Positions 33,038 to 53,099 of a DNA stretch of 64,000 nucleotides are shown here, piece by piece (within the stretch, counting starts at the first letter, position 1; each line of letters starts with the position of its first letter). The DNA is from Azospirillum sp. TSH100 (GTDB lineage Bacteria; Pseudomonadota; Alphaproteobacteria; Azospirillales; Azospirillaceae): the NCBI RefSeq assembly GCF_004923295.1, contig NZ_CP039637.1, positions 620,001 to 684,000 on the forward strand, given 5' to 3'. A program made the translations under genes and the position numbers. The notes below the pieces were generated by a model. It made no database searches and was not told the DNA's origin. It saw nothing but the letters and a program-made list of their open reading frames with translations.

Positions 33038-33177
33038 CCCCTCTCCCCCCGGGGAGAGGGTTAGGGTGAGGGGGACGCGTGGCGGTACTTTACCGAGAAT
33101 CCACCCTGTGCATCCCCCTCACCCCGACCCTCTCCCCGGGGGGGAGAGGGGGAAAGTGCCGGGGGGGGAGAGGGGGA
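33038..33177. repeat. Inverted pair of C/G-rich palindromic repeats
   Basis: One unit (33038-33075) reads CCCTCTCC..GGAGAGGG followed by TTAGGGTGAGGGGG; its near-exact complement lies at 33113-33151, and a partial third unit follows to 33177. The same pair occurs inside the guanidine carboxylase gene at about 51896-52043. Such REP-like units with [11 protein letters not shown]-coding potential are scattered in many proteobacteria. Here it sits between two genes of one operon and may form a strong hairpin in the transcript. Confidence 0.85.
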
Positions 33178-41687: not shown

Positions 41688-41697
41688 TGACAAATGT
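41688..41697. promoter_or_regulatory. Copy of the SorC-region half-site before the ABC operon
   Basis: TGACAAATGT, identical to one arm of the repeat at 40536-40566 (the match extends to CATGACAAATGT if one base is allowed), lies 11 bases upstream of the ATPase start and touches its GGGAGG ribosome site. Confidence 0.55.
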
Positions 41698-41708
41698 GGG
41701 AGGAAACG

Positions 41709-42533
41709 ATGAACAGGACGTCGCCGACCGTCCGTTCCGCCATCGCGGGCGCGCCCGTCGATCCGGTGGCGGCCGTGGCCCCGGCCAGCCCGTTGCTGGA
41801 AGTGTCCGGCGTCACCTTGCAGTACAAGACGTCGGATCATCTGGTGACGGCCACCTACCGGGTCGATTTCCAGGTTTTCAAATCCGACCGCTATGTCCTG
41901 CTCGGCCCGTCGGGCTGCGGGAAATCCACCCTGCTGAAGGCGATCGGCGGCTATCTGGAGCCGGTGGAGGGCGCCATCCGCCTGAACGGTCACGAGGTGA
42001 CCCGCCCCGGTCCCGACCGTATGATGGTGTTCCAGGAATTCGACCAGCTGCTGCCCTGGAAAAGCGTGCGCGAGAACGTGCTGTTCGCGCTGACCACCAG
42101 CGGCCGCGCCAAGGGGGCCGAGGCGGCGGAGCGCACCGACCATTATATCAACAAGGTCGGTCTGGCGAAGTTCGCCCACAGCTTCCCGCACACGCTGTCC
42201 GGCGGCATGAAGCAGCGCGTCGCCATCGCCCGCGGCATGGCGATGGAGCCGGACGTCCTGCTGATGGACGAGCCCTATGCCGCGCTCGACGCCCTGACCC
42301 GCCGCCGCATGCAGGACGAACTGCTGCGCCTGTGGGACGACACCAAATTCACCGTCCTGTTCGTGACCCACTCCATCGAGGAGGCGATCCGTGTCGGCAC
42401 CCGCATCCTGCTGCTGTCGCCGCATCCGGGACAGGTGAAAGCCGAACTGAACAGCATCCCGCCGGAGCATCTCGGCACCGCCGCCCAGGCGGAATTGGAA
42501 GCCCGCATCAACGACATGCTGTTCGTCCACTGA
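41709..42533 (+). CDS. Nitrate/sulfonate-type ABC transporter ATPase
   Basis: A 274-residue ATPase of the SsuB/TauB/NrtD group: Walker A GPSGCGKST, Q-loop FQEFDQLLPWKSV, signature LSGGMKQRVAIARGM, Walker B VLLMDEPYAALD and switch His in FVTHSIEEA. ATG 41709 follows GGGAGGAAAC. It starts a three-gene importer operon on the plus strand after the SorC gene. Confidence 0.92.
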   Translation: MNRTSPTVRSAIAGAPVDPVAAVAPASPLLEVSGVTLQYKTSDHLVTATYRVDFQVFKSDRYVLLGPSGCGKSTLLKAIGGYLEPVEGAIRLNGHEVTRPGPDRMMVFQEFDQLLPWKSVRENVLFALTTSGRAKGAEAAERTDHYINKVGLAKFAHSFPHTLSGGMKQRVAIARGMAMEPDVLLMDEPYAALDALTRRRMQDELLRLWDDTKFTVLFVTHSIEEAIRVGTRILLLSPHPGQVKAELNSIPPEHLGTAAQAELEARINDMLFVH

Positions 42534-42541
42534 GGCCCGCC

Positions 42542-43429
42542 ATGACCATGCACTCCACCATGCAATCCATTCTCGTCGACCGTCCGGAGATCATCCGGGA
42601 CGTGTCCCGCTCGACCGTCATCGCCGATGTCGAGAAGCCGTTGAGCGCGTGGGAGCGGCTCTACCGCGTCCCGCTGCTGCGCAAGGCGCTGATCCTGCTG
42701 GTGCTCTCCCTGATCTGGGAGGTCTATGGCCGCTGGCTCGACAACCCGCTGCTGTTCCCGCCCTTCTCGGCGATGCTCCAGGCCTTCGCCACCGACCTCG
42801 CCGGCGGCATCATCCCGGCGCGCACCCTGGTTTCGCTGCAGACGCTGGTGATCGGCTATGCCATGGGCATCCTGCTGGCGGCCCTGCTGACCACCGTCGC
42901 CATCGGTTCGCAGATCGGCACCGACTTGCTGGAGACGATGACCTCCATGCTGAACCCGCTGCCGGCGATCGCGCTGCTGCCGCTGGCGCTGATCTGGTTC
43001 GGTCTCGGCTCGGGCAGCGTGATCTTCGTGCTCGTCCATTCCGTTCTGTGGGCCATCGCGCTCAACACCCATGCCGGTTTCCGCTCCGTCTCCAACACGC
43101 TGCGCATGGTCGGCCGGAATTACGGGCTGAACGGTTTGGGGCTGGTCCGCCACATCCTGATCCCCGCCGCCTTCCCGTCGATCCTGACCGGCCTGAAGGT
43201 GGGCTGGGCCTTCGCCTGGCGCACGCTGATCGCGGCGGAACTGGTGTTCGGCGTCAGCTCCGGTTCCGGCGGGCTTGGCTGGTACATCTTCGAGAACCGC
43301 AACCAGCTGGAAACGGCCAACGTCTTCGCTGGCCTGTTCACCGTGATCCTGATCGGCCTCGTCGTCGAGAACGGCGTCTTCGCGACCATCGAGCGGCGCA
43401 CCATCCGCCGCTGGGGCATGCAGCACTGA
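42542..43429 (+). CDS. Nitrate/sulfonate-type ABC transporter permease
   Basis: A 295-residue inner-membrane permease with about six spans and the EAA-like loop LRMVGRNYGLNGLGLVRHILIPAAFPSILTGLKVGWAFAWR, characteristic of the SsuC/TauC family. A 45-residue cytoplasmic leader precedes the first span. It follows the ATPase by 8 bases and precedes the binding protein by 35 bases. Confidence 0.9.
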   Translation: MTMHSTMQSILVDRPEIIRDVSRSTVIADVEKPLSAWERLYRVPLLRKALILLVLSLIWEVYGRWLDNPLLFPPFSAMLQAFATDLAGGIIPARTLVSLQTLVIGYAMGILLAALLTTVAIGSQIGTDLLETMTSMLNPLPAIALLPLALIWFGLGSGSVIFVLVHSVLWAIALNTHAGFRSVSNTLRMVGRNYGLNGLGLVRHILIPAAFPSILTGLKVGWAFAWRTLIAAELVFGVSSGSGGLGWYIFENRNQLETANVFAGLFTVILIGLVVENGVFATIERRTIRRWGMQH

Positions 43430-43464
43430 TCCGGCAACCAAGAATTCTTATGGGAGGACCATTG

Positions 43465-44484
43465 ATGACCGCATTCGCGACCCTGCGCCGGGCCGGCGTT
43501 CTGGCGACGGCACTGATCGCACTGGCCACCGGCAGCGTCCGTGCCGAAACCGCCGAGGTCCACATCTCCAAGGGCTACGGCATCCTCTATCTGCCGATGA
43601 TCGTCATGGAGCACGAGAAGCTCCTGGAGAAGCAGGCCAAGGCGGCCGGGCTCGGCGACGTCAAGGTCGGCTGGCTGGAGCTGGACGGCGGCAACGTCAT
43701 CAACGACGCCATGATCTCCGGCAATCTCGACATCGCCGCCATCGGCGTGCCCGGCTTCCTGACGCTGTGGTCGAAGGTGAAGGGCAACGCGAAGCTGGAG
43801 GTCTCCGGTCTGGCCGGGCTCAGCGCCACCTCGCTCTACCTGAACACCAACAACCCCAACATCAAGTCGCTGAAGGACTTCACCGCGAAGGACAAGATCG
43901 CCCTGCCCGGCATCAAGACCTCGCTGTCCGCCGTCGTTCTGCAAATGGCGGTCGCCAAGGAGTTCGGCGACGACAATTACGCCAAGCTCGATCCGATGAC
44001 GGTCGGCCTGCCGCACCCGGAAGCCTATACGGCGCTCGTTTCCGGCAAGACCGAGGTGAACAGCCATCTCGGCTCGCCGCCCTATTCCTTCATGGAGCTG
44101 GAAAACCCCCAGGTGCATCGGGTGATGAACTCGGTGGACGTGCTCGGCAACATCTCGCTCGATCTGGTCTATGCGCCCAAGCGCTTCATCGACGCCAACC
44201 CGAAGCTGACCGCCGCCTTCGTCGCAGCGCTGGAGGAGGCCGACAAGCTGATCGCCGACGAGCCGGCGCGTGCGGCAACGATCTATGTCCAGTCCGCCAA
44301 GGCCAAGCTGTCCGCCGACGAGGTGGAACGGATGATCAAGGATCCGGACACCAAATTCTCGACCACGCCCAACGGCGTCATGCAGTTCGCCAACTTCATG
44401 GGGCGGGTCGGCACGATCAAGACCAAGCCGGCGACGTGGCAGGATCTGTTCATCGCCAACGTCCACTCCCTGCCCGGAAGCTGA
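43465..44484 (+). CDS. NitT/TauT-type ABC transporter substrate-binding protein
   Basis: A 339-residue periplasmic binding protein: signal peptide to about residue 27 (ATALIALATGSVRAE), then KGYGILYLPMIVMEHEKLLEKQA, LDIAAIGVPGFLTLWSK and LPGIKTSLSAVVLQMAVAKEFG, matching the SsuA/TauA/NMT1 fold. RBS GGGAGGACC. The cargo could be a sulfonate, pyrimidine-like or other organic nitrogen/sulfur compound; no enzyme in the operon helps decide. Confidence 0.9.
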   Translation: MTAFATLRRAGVLATALIALATGSVRAETAEVHISKGYGILYLPMIVMEHEKLLEKQAKAAGLGDVKVGWLELDGGNVINDAMISGNLDIAAIGVPGFLTLWSKVKGNAKLEVSGLAGLSATSLYLNTNNPNIKSLKDFTAKDKIALPGIKTSLSAVVLQMAVAKEFGDDNYAKLDPMTVGLPHPEAYTALVSGKTEVNSHLGSPPYSFMELENPQVHRVMNSVDVLGNISLDLVYAPKRFIDANPKLTAAFVAALEEADKLIADEPARAATIYVQSAKAKLSADEVERMIKDPDTKFSTTPNGVMQFANFMGRVGTIKTKPATWQDLFIANVHSLPGS

Positions 44485-44548: not shown

Positions 44549-47056
44549 TTACGGTTGATGCAGGAACGCCTTCCATTGCTGGAGGAAGCGGGCGCGCTTC
44601 AGATGGTCCATGAAGACCAGCAGGGCGGGGCCGAGCGCGATCCGTTGCGTCGGGCCGCGCATCTCCTCCTGCAGATGGGTCGCCGACATCGGACCGCCGA
44701 CCGTCGGCTGGATGGAATAGAAGGCCGTGTTGGCGGCGACCACCGCCTGCCCGCGTTCCGACAGCAGGTAATCGATGAAGCGCCCGGCCAGATCCGGGGC
44801 GCTCGCCCGCTGGGGGATCAGGGCGACGCGCGTCATAACCAGCGTGTAGTCGGACGGCAGGACAATGCCGATATGCGCGCCGTGGAGCTGCCGCTCCCGC
44901 GCGTAGGATCCCAGCAGATTGTAACCGATCAGGCTCTCGCCGCGCTCGATGGAGGCCACCATGTCGGAGGTGCAGCACATCTGCCTCGCCTGATTCTCGC
45001 CGAGCGCATCGGCGAGCTGCCAGAACTGGCTGGTCAGGACGGAATCCTGTGTCGCGAACAGATAGCCGATGCCGCTCTCCTCGATGTCGTAGGTCACCAC
45101 CCGGCCGCGGTAGCGCTCCCTCCGGTCGCGCAGCAGATGGATCAGATCCTCGCGGGAGCGCGGCACCTCGCCGGCCGGAACGAGGTCGCGGTTGAAGACG
45201 ATGGCCGCCGGTTCCTGGGTGAAGCCGAAGGCGGCGCTGCGCCAGATTGCCCAGTCGGGAAGCGCCTCCGTCGCCGGGGAGCTGTAGCGACGCGCGTGCC
45301 CGTCATTGACCAGCTTCACCTGCAAGCCGGAGGCGGAGCTGATGACCAGATCCGGTACGTCGCCGGTCGCCCGCTTGACGACCGACTCGTACAGCTCCCC
45401 GGTGTTCATCTCCCGGTACTCGACGGTGACCGTCGGGTTCGCCTGCTGGAAATCCCGGATCAGCGGCTCGATCGCCGGCCGGTCGGTGGCGGCGTCGATG
45501 CGCAGCCGCTCCACCCCGCCCGCGGACGCTGGATAGAGAACCGGCTCCAGGGCCAGGGCCGGCCTGGGAAGAGTCAGTGGAAGGGCTGGCAGCATCAGGA
45601 GGAGAATCAGGCCGAACATCCGTTTCCCGGCCGGGCCGGTGCCGGCGCTCGTCTCCGCGGGGCGGTCTGGAGTCGGGAATTCCAGGCGGACGATCAGACC
45701 GCCGCCGGGGCGGTCGAGCAGGGAAAGTGCCGCATGATGGGCCTCGGCCACCGCCGCGGCGATGGAGAGGCCGAGGCCGCTGCCGGCGATCCCCTTCGAC
45801 AGCCGCCCGCGGCTGAAGCGCTCGAACACCTTGGACTTCTCCCCGTCCGGTATGCCGGGACCGCGGTCGGCGATCTCCACCAGCGGGCCGTAATCGGCGG
45901 TTCCCGGACGTACCTGCACGTCGATGGAACCGGCGCCGCCGTATTTGACCGCATTGTCCAGCAGGTTTGACAGAGCCTCCCGCAGGGTCACCGGGTCGCC
46001 ATGCAGCAGCGCGTCCCCTTCGGCCGGCTCGCGGGTCAGGGTGATGGGGGGAGCGTCGGGGCGGCCGGTCATCTGCTGGACGATCTGCCGAAGCAGAGCA
46101 TCGAGGTCCACCACCTGCGGCTGGACCGACTCCGCTCGGTGGACGACGGTCGCATGGTTCAGCAGCTGCGTGGTCAGTTCGCTCGCCTCGACGGCGTTGC
46201 GGTGGATGCGCTCGACGCGGTTCCGCAGGCGCTCGACATCCGCCTCGCGGCGCGCCAGTTCGGCCTGCGAGCGCAGCGCCGCCAGGGGGGTGCGGATCTG
46301 ATGGGCCGCGTCTGCCAGAAAGGACTGGGTGGAATCCAGGCTGGCCTTGAAGCGGACCACCAGCTGGTTGATGGCGGCCAGCAGTTGTCCGACCTCGGTC
46401 GGCACCGGGGCATCGATCGGGGTGAAGTCCTGCGGTTGCCGCGCTCGGATCAGGGCTTCGAGAAAGGCCAAGGGCGCCAGCGCCTGACGGACGCCGAACC
46501 ACAGCAGGACGCCGCCGACCACCACGGCGAAGGCGATGGGCGCGAAGGAGTTGGCGACCAGCTTTGATGCCAGCAGGTCGCGGGCCTCGCGGGTCTGGGC
46601 GACCACCACGGTCACCCATCCGGACCGCGGCACGCCGCTGATGAAACGCCCGGTGACCGCAATCCGCACCGGGGCATCGCTGTAGATGGCGTTCTGAAAC
46701 ACCGGCGTGTCGTCATGCACCGTGACGCCGGGCAGATCCTCGTAGCCGGTGACGAGCAGGCCGCCCGGCGCCATCACCTTGTAGAAGACCCGGTCGTGCC
46801 GGGCCGTGCCCAGCACGCTGAGCGACGAATAGGGCAGATCCACCGTGATGGCGCCGTTCTCAACCCGCACGGCGTCGGCGATCGACAGGGCCGACGCCGA
46901 CAGAAGCTGGTCATAGGCGCTGTCCGCCGCCTCCTGTGCATAACTGCGGACGAACAGGAACAGGATGAGGGTGACGACGCCGAGGACCACGAACATCCGG
47001 CTCAGCAGGCGCCGGCGCAGCGAGCCCCCCGCGGCGGCCCGACCTTCAGTCGGCAT
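44549..47056 (-). CDS. Sensor histidine kinase fused to ABC-type substrate-binding domain
   Basis: An 835-residue protein joining two normally separate parts. Residues 1-475: TctE-like kinase with a span (FVVLGVVTLILFLFV), a periplasmic sensor, a second span (FAPIAFAVVVGGVLLWFG), the phosphorylated His at about 252 (DAAHQIRTPLAAL), N-box NLLDNAVKYG, and ATP motifs DRGPGIP and GSGLGLSI. Residues 480-505: a signal-like helix KRMFGLILLLMLPALPLTL ending in ALALE. Residues 505-835: an iron-type (SBP_bac) binding domain with DLVISSASGLQVKLVNDGHA and PAAIVFNRDLV. Each half has the usual family length. The start at 47056 overlaps the regulator stop by 11 bases. The second half might also be made separately from ATG 45619 or released by signal peptidase. 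Confidence 0.9.
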   Translation of the reverse strand: MPTEGRAAAGGSLRRRLLSRMFVVLGVVTLILFLFVRSYAQEAADSAYDQLLSASALSIADAVRVENGAITVDLPYSSLSVLGTARHDRVFYKVMAPGGLLVTGYEDLPGVTVHDDTPVFQNAIYSDAPVRIAVTGRFISGVPRSGWVTVVVAQTREARDLLASKLVANSFAPIAFAVVVGGVLLWFGVRQALAPLAFLEALIRARQPQDFTPIDAPVPTEVGQLLAAINQLVVRFKASLDSTQSFLADAAHQIRTPLAALRSQAELARREADVERLRNRVERIHRNAVEASELTTQLLNHATVVHRAESVQPQVVDLDALLRQIVQQMTGRPDAPPITLTREPAEGDALLHGDPVTLREALSNLLDNAVKYGGAGSIDVQVRPGTADYGPLVEIADRGPGIPDGEKSKVFERFSRGRLSKGIAGSGLGLSIAAAVAEAHHAALSLLDRPGGGLIVRLEFPTPDRPAETSAGTGPAGKRMFGLILLLMLPALPLTLPRPALALEPVLYPASAGGVERLRIDAATDRPAIEPLIRDFQQANPTVTVEYREMNTGELYESVVKRATGDVPDLVISSASGLQVKLVNDGHARRYSSPATEALPDWAIWRSAAFGFTQEPAAIVFNRDLVPAGEVPRSREDLIHLLRDRRERYRGRVVTYDIEESGIGYLFATQDSVLTSQFWQLADALGENQARQMCCTSDMVASIERGESLIGYNLLGSYARERQLHGAHIGIVLPSDYTLVMTRVALIPQRASAPDLAGRFIDYLLSERGQAVVAANTAFYSIQPTVGGPMSATHLQEEMRGPTQRIALGPALLVFMDHLKRARFLQQWKAFLHQP

Positions 47057-47720
47057 TTTGCTTTTCACCCACATAGCCGACGCCATGCACGGTGCGGATC
47101 ACCACCGAGGCGCCCTCCAGCTTGCGCCGCAGGCGGGAGACCGACATCTCCACCGCGTTCGGCGTCACCGCCTGTTCCAGATCGAAGAGCTGTTCGATGA
47201 GCGCGGTCCTGGTCAGCACGCGCCCCAGATTGCCAAGGAACAGCTCCAGCAGCCGGAACTCCCGCGCGCTGAGGTCGAGCGGCCGGCCATCGATCGACAC
47301 CGTCCGCCCCGCCGCGTCGAACGCCAGATTCCCGAAAACGGCTTGGGACGAGGCCATGCCGTGGGAACGGCGCAGCAGGGCACGGCACCGTGCCTCCAGT
47401 TCGCGCAGGTCGAAAGGCTTCACGATATAGTCGTCGGCGCCGAGGTCGAGCAGATGGATCTTGGTGTCGATCTGCGACCGCGCCGTGGTGACCAGCACCG
47501 GCGTCCGGTCGCCCCGGCGGCGCAGCTGGCGCAGCAGGGTCTGCCCGTCCGGTCCCGGCAGCATGACGTCGAGGATGATGAGCTGGTAGGTCTCCGTGCG
47601 CAGGAGCTCGTCGGCCTGATGGCCGTCCGCCGCCCAATCGACGGCATGACCAAGGCCGCGCAGGCTGTCTATGACGGCATCGGCCAGATCCTCGGCATCC
47701 TCGATCACCAAGATCCGCAT
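47046..47720 (-). CDS. OmpR-family response regulator (TctD-like)
   Basis: A 224-residue response regulator. Receiver: acidic pair ED in VIEDAED, phosphorylated Asp in LIILDVMLPGPDG, Thr in VLVTTARS and Lys in DYIVKPFD. DNA-binding winged helix: LSAREFRLLELFLGNLGRVLTR and VEMSVSRLRRKLEGASVVIRTVHGVGYV. Start at 47720 chosen over ATG 47726 for better spacing from GAGAG. It is the partner of the fused kinase; TctD-type pairs usually control uptake of tricarboxylates or related compounds. Confidence 0.94.
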   Translation of the reverse strand: MRILVIEDAEDLADAVIDSLRGLGHAVDWAADGHQADELLRTETYQLIILDVMLPGPDGQTLLRQLRRRGDRTPVLVTTARSQIDTKIHLLDLGADDYIVKPFDLRELEARCRALLRRSHGMASSQAVFGNLAFDAAGRTVSIDGRPLDLSAREFRLLELFLGNLGRVLTRTALIEQLFDLEQAVTPNAVEMSVSRLRRKLEGASVVIRTVHGVGYVGEKQNAD

Positions 47721-47947
47721 CGGCATTCTCTCGTGGATTGGGCCGCGATCATACAACGCATGCGATCCGCACCATCGCGCTTTCTTGGCTCGGGCGATGA
47801 TGAAAGTCGCACACCGATGCACAAGAATGCGTCGCGCCCGATTGAAATTTAGGCAACCGCCTCGTGCCTCGCCGTCGCCCGTCCCGGAATTCCGCCGAAT
47901 CCCAGGCCACGGGAGTTGGCACGGATCCTGCGAAGTACCGGACGTAA

Positions 47948-48070
47948 AGCCGCTAGGGTTCCGGCCGGTCCGCAGTGTCATGCGATCCGGTGGCTGGTCC
48001 GAGAGCGGCGACCTGTCCGGTGAACAGCGGACGGGCACACGGCGGGACAAAAGCCCGGGAGGTTCCGAAC
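47948..48070 (+). promoter_or_regulatory. Guanidine-I (ykkC) riboswitch
   Basis: The conserved elements are present in order and spacing: CTAGGGTTCCGG at 47953-47964, GGTCCGAGAGCGG at 47996-48008, and ACGGCGGGACAAAAGCCC followed by GGGAGGTT to 48064. These are the defining blocks of the ykkC class, which binds free guanidinium. It lies 150 bases upstream of genes for guanidine carboxylation, exactly where this class is expected. Between aptamer and gene are two tight hairpins (48136-48153 and 48187-48204, the latter ending just before GGAAGGAGG), a likely expression platform; no T-rich terminator is seen. The part of the gap from 47727 to 47945 shows no gene. Confidence 0.95.
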
Positions 48071-49615: not shown

Positions 49616-51895
49616 GGGGACCGCACATGTTCACCAAGGTCCTGATCGCCAACCGCGGCGAGATCGCCTGCCGCGTCATCCGCACGCTCGACCACCTGGG
49701 CATCGCCTCGGTCGCCGTGTATTCCGAAGCCGACGCCCAGTCCCTGCATGTGGCGCTGGCGGGGGAGGCCGTCTGCATCGGCCCCGCCGCGGTATCTGAA
49801 AGCTATCTGAACGCCGACCGCATCCTGGCGGCGGCGAAACAGACCGGCGCCCAGGCGATCCATCCCGGCTACGGCTTCCTGTCGGAGAATCCCGGCTTCG
49901 CCGAGGCCTGCGCCGCCGCCGGCATCGTCTTCATCGGCCCGACGCCGGAGCAGATGCGCGCCTTCGGGCTGAAGCACAGCGCCCGCGCCCTGGCGGAGCG
50001 CAGCGGCGTGCCGCTCTCCCCCGGCAGCGGCCTGCTGACCGACGCCGCCCATGCCAAGGCGGAAGCGGCGCGCATCGGCTATCCGGTGATGATCAAGAGC
50101 ACGGCCGGCGGCGGCGGCATCGGCATGCAGCTGTGCCGCGAGCCGGAAACGCTGGAACCGATGTTCGAGGCGGTCAGCCGGCTTTCGCGCAACAACTTCA
50201 AGGACGGCGGCGTCTTTCTGGAGAAGTTCATCGAGCGCGCCCGCCACATCGAGGTGCAGATCTTCGGCGACGGACAGGGCGGCGTGGTGGCGCTGGGCGA
50301 GCGCGACTGCTCCGCCCAGCGGCGCAACCAGAAGGTCATCGAGGAGACACCGGCCCCCGGCATTTCGGACGAGTTGCGCCGCAACCTGTTCGACGCGGCG
50401 GAGCGGCTGGGCCGCGCCGTGAACTACCAATCCGCCGGCACGGTCGAGTTCGTCTATGACGACGCGGCCGGCGAGGCCTATTTCCTGGAGGTCAACACCC
50501 GCCTTCAGGTCGAGCATGGCGTGACCGAGGAAGTCACCGGCGTCGATCTGGTGGAATGGATGATCCGGCAGGCGGCCGGCGAGGCCCTGCCGCTGGAGGA
50601 TCACCGAAACACGGCGCCCAGAGACAAGGCACAGGGTGCCTCGATCCAGGTGCGCGTCTATGCCGAGGATCCCGGCCGCAACTTCCGCCCCTGCTCCGGC
50701 CTGCTGACCGAGGCGGTGTTTCCGGCGGATGCCCGCGTCGAGACCTGGGTGGAACAGGGCAGCGAGGTGACGCCCTTCTACGATCCGCTGGTCGCCAAGA
50801 TCATCGTGCGCGGCGCGGACCGCGCCGACGCGCTGGCGAAGCTGCGCGACGCGCTCGCCCGCTGCCGCCTGTCGGGGATCGAGACCAACCTCGCCTATCT
50901 GCGTCAGCTTGCAGCCGATCCGGTCTTCGCGGCCGGCGGCATCACCACCCGCTATCTGGAAACGGTGGCCTATGCGGCGCGCACGCTGGAGGTCGTCACC
51001 CCTGGCACGCTGACCACCGTGCAGGATCATCCCGGCCGCGTCGGCTATTGGGAGGTCGGCGTGCCGCCCTCCGGCCCGATGGATCCGCTGGCCTTCCGGC
51101 TCGGCAACCGCGCGCTCGGCAACCCGGACGGGGCGGCGGGGCTGGAGATCACCGTGTCGGGCCCGACGCTGCGCTTCAACGCCGAGGCGGTGCTCTGCCT
51201 GACCGGTGCGGCAATGCCGGCCGACCTCGACGGCGCGCCGGTACGCTTCTGGGAGCCGGTGACTGTACCGGCGGGGGCCACCTTGCGCATCGGCACGGTC
51301 AGCGGCGCCGGCTGCCGCGCCTATCTGCTGGTGCAAGGCGGTCTGGACGTGCCGGACTATCTCGGCAGCAAGTCCACCTTCACGCTCGGCAAGTTCGGCG
51401 GGCATGGCGGGCGGGCGCTGCTGCCGGGCGATATCCTGCATCTCGGCGATGCGGCAGCCGGAGTTACGGGCGCGGTCGCCGGGGAAGACCGGCCGGCTTA
51501 CGGGCATGCGTGGGAAATCGGCGTCCTTTATGGCCCGCACGGTGCGCCGGATTTCTTTACCGACGAGGACATCGCCGCCTTCTTCGCCGCCGACTGGGAG
51601 GTGCATTACAATTCCAGCCGCACCGGCATCCGCCTGATCGGGCCTAAGCCGGTCTGGGCGCGCAAGGATGGCGGCGAGGCCGGGCTGCACCCGTCGAACA
51701 TCCACGACAATGCCTATGCCATCGGCGCCATCGACTTCACCGGCGACATGCCGGTGATCCTGGGACCGGACGGTCCCAGCCTGGGCGGCTTCGTCTGTCC
51801 GGCGACCATCGTCGATGCCGAGCTGTGGAAGATCGGCCAGTTGCGGCAGGGCGACACGGTGCGGTTCAAACGGCTGACGGCGGATGAGGCAATCT

Positions 51896-52043
51896 CCCCC
51901 TCTCCCCCCCGGGGAGAGGGTCGGGGTGAGGGGGAGGCGCTGCATGGATCAACTCGACATGCAGCAGCTTTCCATTCTCGCCAATCCTCGCCACGCGCCC
52001 CCCTCACCCTAACCCTCTCCCCGGGGGGGAGAGGGAATCACGT
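51896..52043. repeat. REP-like inverted repeat pair inside the carboxylase gene
   Basis: The same C/G-rich unit as at 33038-33177 occurs as an inverted pair: CCCTCTCC..GGAGAGGG with TCGGGGTGAGGGGG at about 51896-51935, and CCCCCTCACCCTAACCCTC onward at about 52000-52032. The spacer holds a TGCATG/CATGCA pair. It keeps the reading frame open, adding [12 protein letters not shown] and [12 protein letters not shown] to the protein between the two carboxyltransferase halves. Confidence 0.9.
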
Positions 52044-53099
52044 CAGGGCGGGAGAGGGAAAGAGCGACTCTCCCATCCTCCACAGCATTCCGGCGACCGC
52101 CAGCCGTCCGGCCGTCGTCTACCGCCGGGCCGGCGACACATATCTGCTGATCGAGTACGGACCGCTGGTGCTGGATCTCGACCTGCGCTTCCGTGTCCAC
52201 GCGCTCCAGAGCTGGCTGCGGGCGCAGGCGTTGCCGGGCATCCTCGACCTGACTCCCGGCATCCGCTCGCTCCAGATCCATTACGACAGCCGCCGGCTGC
52301 CGCTCGGCGCGCTGCTCGACCGGCTGGTCGGAGCGGAGGACGAGTTGGCGGCCATCGACGATCTGGCGGTGCCGACGCGCATCATCCACCTGCCGCTGTC
52401 CTGGGACGACGAGGCCACCCGCCTCGCGATTTCCAAATACATGCAGTCGGTGCGCGCCGACGCCCCCTGGTGCCCGAGCAACATCGAGTTCATCCGCCGC
52501 ATCAACGGCCTGGACGACATCGAGGCGGTGAAGCGCATCGTCTTCGACGCCAGCTATCTCGTGCTCGGTCTGGGCGACGTCTATCTCGGCGCCCCGGTGG
52601 CGACACCGGTCGATCCACGCCACCGCCTCGTCACCACCAAATACAACCCGGCCCGCACCTGGACGCCGGAAAACGCGGTGGGCATCGGCGGCGCCTACAT
52701 GTGCGTCTATGGCATGGAGGGGCCGGGCGGCTACCAGTTCGTCGGCCGCACCTGCCAGATGTGGAACACCCACCGGACCACCGACGCCTTCGAACCGGGC
52801 AAGCCCTGGCTGCTGCGCCACTTCGACCAGATCCGCTTCCACCCCGTCAGCCATGACGAGCTGATGGCCTTCCGCGCCGACTTCCCGCTCGGCCGGGCCA
52901 GCCTGCGCATCGAGGAGGAGAGCTTCCGCCTCGCCGATTACCGCCGCTTCCTGGCGGAGAACCGTGACAGCATCGCCGCCTTCAAGACGCGCCAGCAAAC
53001 AGCCTTCGAGGAGGAGCGGGCGCGCTGGGAGGCGTCCGGCCAGATCGGCTATGCGGCGGAGCTGCCGGACGGCGCCGGCGCGGAGGCCGAGGCCGATCT

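Follow-up and report, generated by a model that had tools for sequence, protein, structure and literature searches.

In the window analysed here (the whole 64,000-nucleotide stretch of DNA from Azospirillum sp. TSH100), a TctE-type histidine kinase and a solute-binding protein (SBP) are encoded in one uninterrupted frame, and the same arrangement recurs in related genomes and in other families. We think it probable, with moderate confidence, that the gene belongs to a three-component sensor of a carboxylate-type nutrient, in which kinase and SBP are translated as a single polyprotein that signal peptidase probably splits. The sequence evidence for this reading lies in the single frame, its conservation and repeated origin, the loss of a second start, the signal-peptide character of the junction, and the domains on either side; its cleavage, docking, ligand class, and regulated genes we infer. 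The relatives used for comparison, after duplicates were removed, comprised 59 fused, 32 tandem, and 12 divergent genes and 22 solitary SBP genes.

According to the model, the kinase part would insert with two membrane helices and end in the cytoplasm, after which the internal signal sequence (residues 478-502) would re-engage Sec and export the SBP. Signal peptidase I would then probably cut after ALA502, so that each membrane kinase would be matched by one free SBP. A loaded SBP would dock on the periplasmic 2CSK_N domain and switch the kinase, which would phosphorylate the response regulator encoded at 47046-47720.

The fused gene and its parts

The frame has 835 codons and lies on the minus strand, running from an ATG at 47056 to a stop at 44549-44551, as checked among the open reading frames of the window; the plus strand over 44549-47056 is interrupted by stops. 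The original prediction had the interval right, and the strand can now be added to it. It had also described a complete TctE-like kinase and a complete SBP within one 835-residue frame, the second half retaining a start like that of a signal peptide, and all of this is borne out by the frame, by Pfam, and by the match to PDB 3c9h (Table 1).

Table 1. Positions in the window of the fused gene, its parts, and its neighbours
Feature	Coordinates	Strand	Basis
Fused gene, 835 aa: TctE-type histidine kinase, internal signal segment, and SBP	44549..47056	-	Frame and Pfam
Kinase part, residues 1-461	45674..47056	-	Pfam, invariant residues, hydrophobicity
Variable linker, residues 462-477	45626..45673	-	
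Internal signal-peptide-like segment KRMFGLILLLMLPALPLTLPRPALA, residues 478-502	45551..45625	-	
Internal ATG (Met480), without Shine-Dalgarno-like sequence	45617..45619	-	
SBP, residues 503-835	44552..45550	-	SBP_bac_11/SBP_bac_6, PDB 3c9h
OmpR-type response regulator, Response_reg and Trans_reg_C, 224 aa	47046..47720	-	Pfam
Convergent ABC transporter: ATPase, BPD_transp_1 permease, NMT1-like binding protein	41694..44484	+	

In the kinase part, Pfam places 2CSK_N at residues 26-165, HisKA at 244-300, and HATPase_c at 353-463, and hydrophobicity indicates transmembrane helices at about 17-37 (TM1) and about 171-193 (TM2). Invariant residues were compared among relatives; H252 of HisKA lies within AAHQIRTP. 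The linker that follows varies among orthologues by indels that are multiples of three only. It gives way to a segment built like a signal peptide (GKR, then a hydrophobic core, then PALA), in which a signal peptidase I site is predicted after residue 502, between ALA and LEP. The SBP half, matched by SBP_bac_11/SBP_bac_6 at residues 522-780, is AfuA/3C9H-like and resembles iron-type ABC binding proteins, its closest solved structure being PDB 3c9h (residues 491-832, E 6.5e-70). An AlphaFold2 model built with seven close orthologues reached a pLDDT of 34.7 and was set aside.

Fate of the internal segment

The original prediction allowed that the SBP might be either tethered beside the sensor or released from a polyprotein by signal peptidase. 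These were apt alternatives, and the short core and constrained cleavage region appear to favour the polyprotein. The (-3,-1) rule is weak evidence by itself, because it is also satisfied after TM1 in 70 of the 91 kinases; for that reason the strict A-x-A count was supplemented by tests of core length and selection. The hydrophobic core has a median length of 14 residues at the fused junction and 15 in the signal peptides of tandem SBPs, against 16 for kinase TM1 and 20 for TM2. Cores at the junction differ from TM2 (p 2e-18) and not from the signal peptides of unfused SBPs (p 0.59), p-values that treat related sequences as independent. Selection was gauged across seven orthologues, where dN/dS is 0.72 for the linker (462-479) and 0.82 for the n/h region, and 0.14 for the c-region (498-506), the last figure coming from only nine codons, part of which form the start of the mature SBP and may own some of the constraint. 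The same orthologues give 0.14 for the kinase catalytic region and 0.15 for the SBP. A hydrophobic core that drifts while the cut site stays fixed is what one expects of a cleavable signal peptide, and the observed ratios match it. The internal segment thus looks like a cleavable signal peptide.

Perhaps, however, the segment stays uncut and serves as a third membrane anchor, holding the SBP beside the kinase sensor domain so that ligand is presented in cis. The chain and its topology would be the same, all 59 fused sequences keep the linker and segment open, and cores of 18-25 residues occur in some relatives. We consider this unlikely, though it deserves to be taken seriously, since in median length and hydrophobicity the cores come closer to the cleavable signal peptides of unfused relatives than to kinase helices, and it is the c-region residues that are constrained, whereas the helix itself drifts. 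Cleavage therefore seems distinctly likelier than tethering, judging from these sequence features. A more elaborate possibility, which we put forward tentatively and with some doubt, is that the uncut chain is the working receptor. Both ends of its catalytic domain would be anchored to the membrane and its own SBP leashed in the periplasm for intramolecular presentation of ligand (or else freed by signal peptidase in a regulated way), a layout that would have been reached independently in several lineages.

Unfused SBPs of three more distant Pseudomonadota (L131, L132, and L145) have apparent twin-arginine-like signal peptides, not the Sec type. Linker length varies by group, from 1 residue in Rhodobacterales through about 16 in the window gene to up to about 60 in others. 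In the Rhodobacterales fusions L168, L169, and L170, the signal core begins one residue after the last kinase strand, a layout that would press the catalytic domain to the membrane.

Neighbouring genes and the role of the binding protein

Immediately upstream is the response regulator gene, which shares 11 bases with the kinase start, an overlap also seen in relatives. The ABC transporter that converges on the fused gene is NitT/TauT-like, has a binding protein of its own, and is recognisable in most orthologous loci; it is a candidate for the system's regulated target. A scan for promoters found none. No tct genes surround the window copy or its orthologues, but in the family at large such genes are common neighbours: among the 47 fused loci with enough flanking sequence, 27 have tct genes, 9 a malic enzyme (mostly with citrate lyase), and one a 2-hydroxycarboxylate carrier, while the 16 tandem loci include 9 with tct genes, 2 with a 2-hydroxycarboxylate carrier, and 1 with aconitase. 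Since a genome search finds 1 to 7 TctA matches per Azospirillum genome, adjacency to tct is far above chance, although the loci are related and not independent. The ligand class of the family is accordingly predicted to be citrate/tricarboxylate-like, as judged from its neighbours, with the window copy itself lacking tct genes nearby.

A link to guanidine was considered and dropped. A Guanidine-I riboswitch (81.7 bits, window 47942-48063, plus strand) precedes two DUF1989 urea-amidolyase-associated proteins and a urea/guanidine carboxylase-like gene. The riboswitch is found also at the locus of the closest orthologue (L009) and is absent from the loci L010-L014; it and the urea carboxylase cluster border the system in the window and L009 alone. 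As they do not do so in L010-L014, the adjacency was treated as incidental. Also nearby is a GC-rich dispersed palindromic repeat, with copies at 51895-52050 and 33045-33153 of the window. The former sits in frame inside the urea carboxylase gene, which stays open, and the L009 gene aligns across it.

One might suppose that the fusion is real and the chain cleaved but that the SBP is a component of transport and not the sensor's partner, two overlapping genes having merged neutrally. Its resemblance to iron-type ABC binding proteins would fit, as would locus L108 (4488-10824), where another SBP belonging to the same family comes after the fused gene, along with apparent permease and ATPase genes. 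This reading strikes us as quite improbable: no second permease/ATPase set adjoins the window gene to serve the fused SBP, and the coupling to the kinase gene is tight in many lineages. The L108 layout suggests that the sensor SBP derives from an AfuABC/FbpABC-like transporter.

A sensing role has precedents. In Bordetella, citrate-loaded BctC interacts with the kinase BctE (PMC5812351) and is required for the induction of bctCBA (PMC5812351, PMC9602780). The BctDE-BctC system of Bordetella pertussis shares with the window a TctE-type kinase, a response regulator, and an SBP tied to the system, and shares with most relatives a context of carboxylate uptake. Of the features typical of TctDE/BctDE systems, the window has the 2CSK_N/HisKA/HATPase_c kinase and the adjacent OmpR-type regulator but not an adjacent tctCBA. 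BctC, however, is a transporter SBP of the TctC/Bug family with its own gene, whereas the window has a dedicated SBP of the SBP_bac_11/6 type, carried on the kinase chain. Separate periplasmic binding proteins also convey ligand to the kinase in HptA-HptS, TorT-TorS, and LuxP-LuxQ (PMC8534201), but these are two genes and two chains; in the window there is one chain with an internal signal sequence. The adjacency of genes that marks such couples has become fusion in the window and is seen as overlap or close spacing in the 32 tandem relatives. Counting against a sensing role, two sensor kinases of PAO1 are not activated by the SBPs of neighbouring genes (PMC11113362).

Two other kinds of protein resemble the window protein in architecture. 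BvgS and EvgS join an SBP-like (Venus flytrap) domain to a kinase in one polypeptide, as it does, but their flytraps are N-terminal, before the transmembrane helix and kinase, while the window SBP is C-terminal and would need a further crossing of the membrane. FbcH of Bradyrhizobium is a cytochrome b/c1 polyprotein, encoded by one gene and cut into its two partners by signal peptidase at an internal signal sequence. Its products are subunits of a respiratory complex; those of the window chain would be a sensor and its ligand-binding partner.

Translation, spread, and origin of the fusion

The SBP might be translated separately from an internal start, making the fusion an incidental product of read-through. 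The original prediction pointed to position 45619 as a possible start, and an ATG is indeed there, but it has no Shine-Dalgarno-like sequence and is not a likely second start. Nor is it conserved: Met480 is replaced by Ile in the 96% identical orthologue L009 and by Ile or Leu in the nearest orthologues generally. A start codon with a Shine-Dalgarno sequence is found near the signal segment in 28 of the 32 tandem genes and in only 3 of the 59 fused genes (Fisher p 6e-16); the other 56, the window gene included, lack it. The linkers of the 59 fused sequences also showed neither stops nor frameshifts. Separate translation is therefore very improbable, and since the start and ribosome-binding site of the SBP are mostly lost in fused genes, translation probably yields the fused chain alone.

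A search of related genomes for the same fusion, as the original prediction had proposed, showed that 35 of the 45 Azospirillum genomes have one or more fused genes and that further genera of Azospirillaceae have them too. Orthologues of the window gene are fused in six other species (96 to 86% identity), and the genome of the window holds a second fused paralogue (C3:664304-666793, 57%) and, on C2, an unfused, divergent kinase/SBP pair. Fused forms occur also in a second alphaproteobacterial family, in Peteryoungia, and on plasmids of Sulfitobacter, Palleronia, and Salipiger. Long open frames in G605, G644, and G812 looked like fusions and were rejected, their kinase and SBP being in different frames. 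One Azospirillum genome (L122, G018) keeps an unfused tandem with an ATGA overlap and adjoining tct genes. That an artefact of assembly or sequencing deleted a stop, a possibility raised by the original prediction and favoured by nothing else, is already refuted by independent genomes: orthologues 96, 91, 90, and 87% identical, from separate assemblies, are fused alike, and so are genes in distant families.

The original prediction attributed the fusion to local loss of a stop codon between adjacent genes. This does not hold, as the fusion is old and conserved and has more than one origin, and stop loss alone could not have produced it. Tandem pairs nearly always overlap, typically as ATGA, the SBP starting within the kinase stop codon, and in 32 of 32 the SBP is read in the -1 frame with respect to the kinase. 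Fusing such a pair takes a change of frame, which by this comparison means a small net insertion or deletion towards the end of the kinase gene. Two trees, one of the SBP and one of kinase+SBP, each require 4 changes of the fused label, and starred branches force at least 3 of these, although trees alone do not distinguish gain of fusion from its loss. Placing all fused genes in one clade was rejected (p-AU 3e-36); they fall into Azospirillaceae, Peteryoungia with the second family, Rhodobacterales with G405, and G326. Several independent fusions appear the simpler reading, because under repeated splitting the same -1 overlap and a ribosome-binding site would each time have had to arise anew.

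No kinase-SBP fusion was found described in the literature searched, in which subscription journals were poorly covered. Two-component sensing that depends on an SBP is already known, and the window system is best explained as a variant of it that follows the logic of BctC and BctE, with a dedicated SBP translated as part of the kinase chain. In RefSeq plasmid records such a fused gene is annotated as one protein named 'extracellular solute-binding protein', so its kinase half may escape censuses of two-component systems.

Only about ten couples of kinase and SBP have been characterised, and gene neighbourhood is an unreliable guide to the partner (PMC9602780, PMC11113362). The physical joining of the two is a far stronger pointer to the partner than neighbourhood is, and it fixes their supply at 1:1. 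The convergent fusions and their unfused relatives make a ready set for testing how SBPs switch kinases and, if the chain is indeed cleaved, the family would provide an uncommon case of a bacterial polyprotein split by an internal signal peptide.
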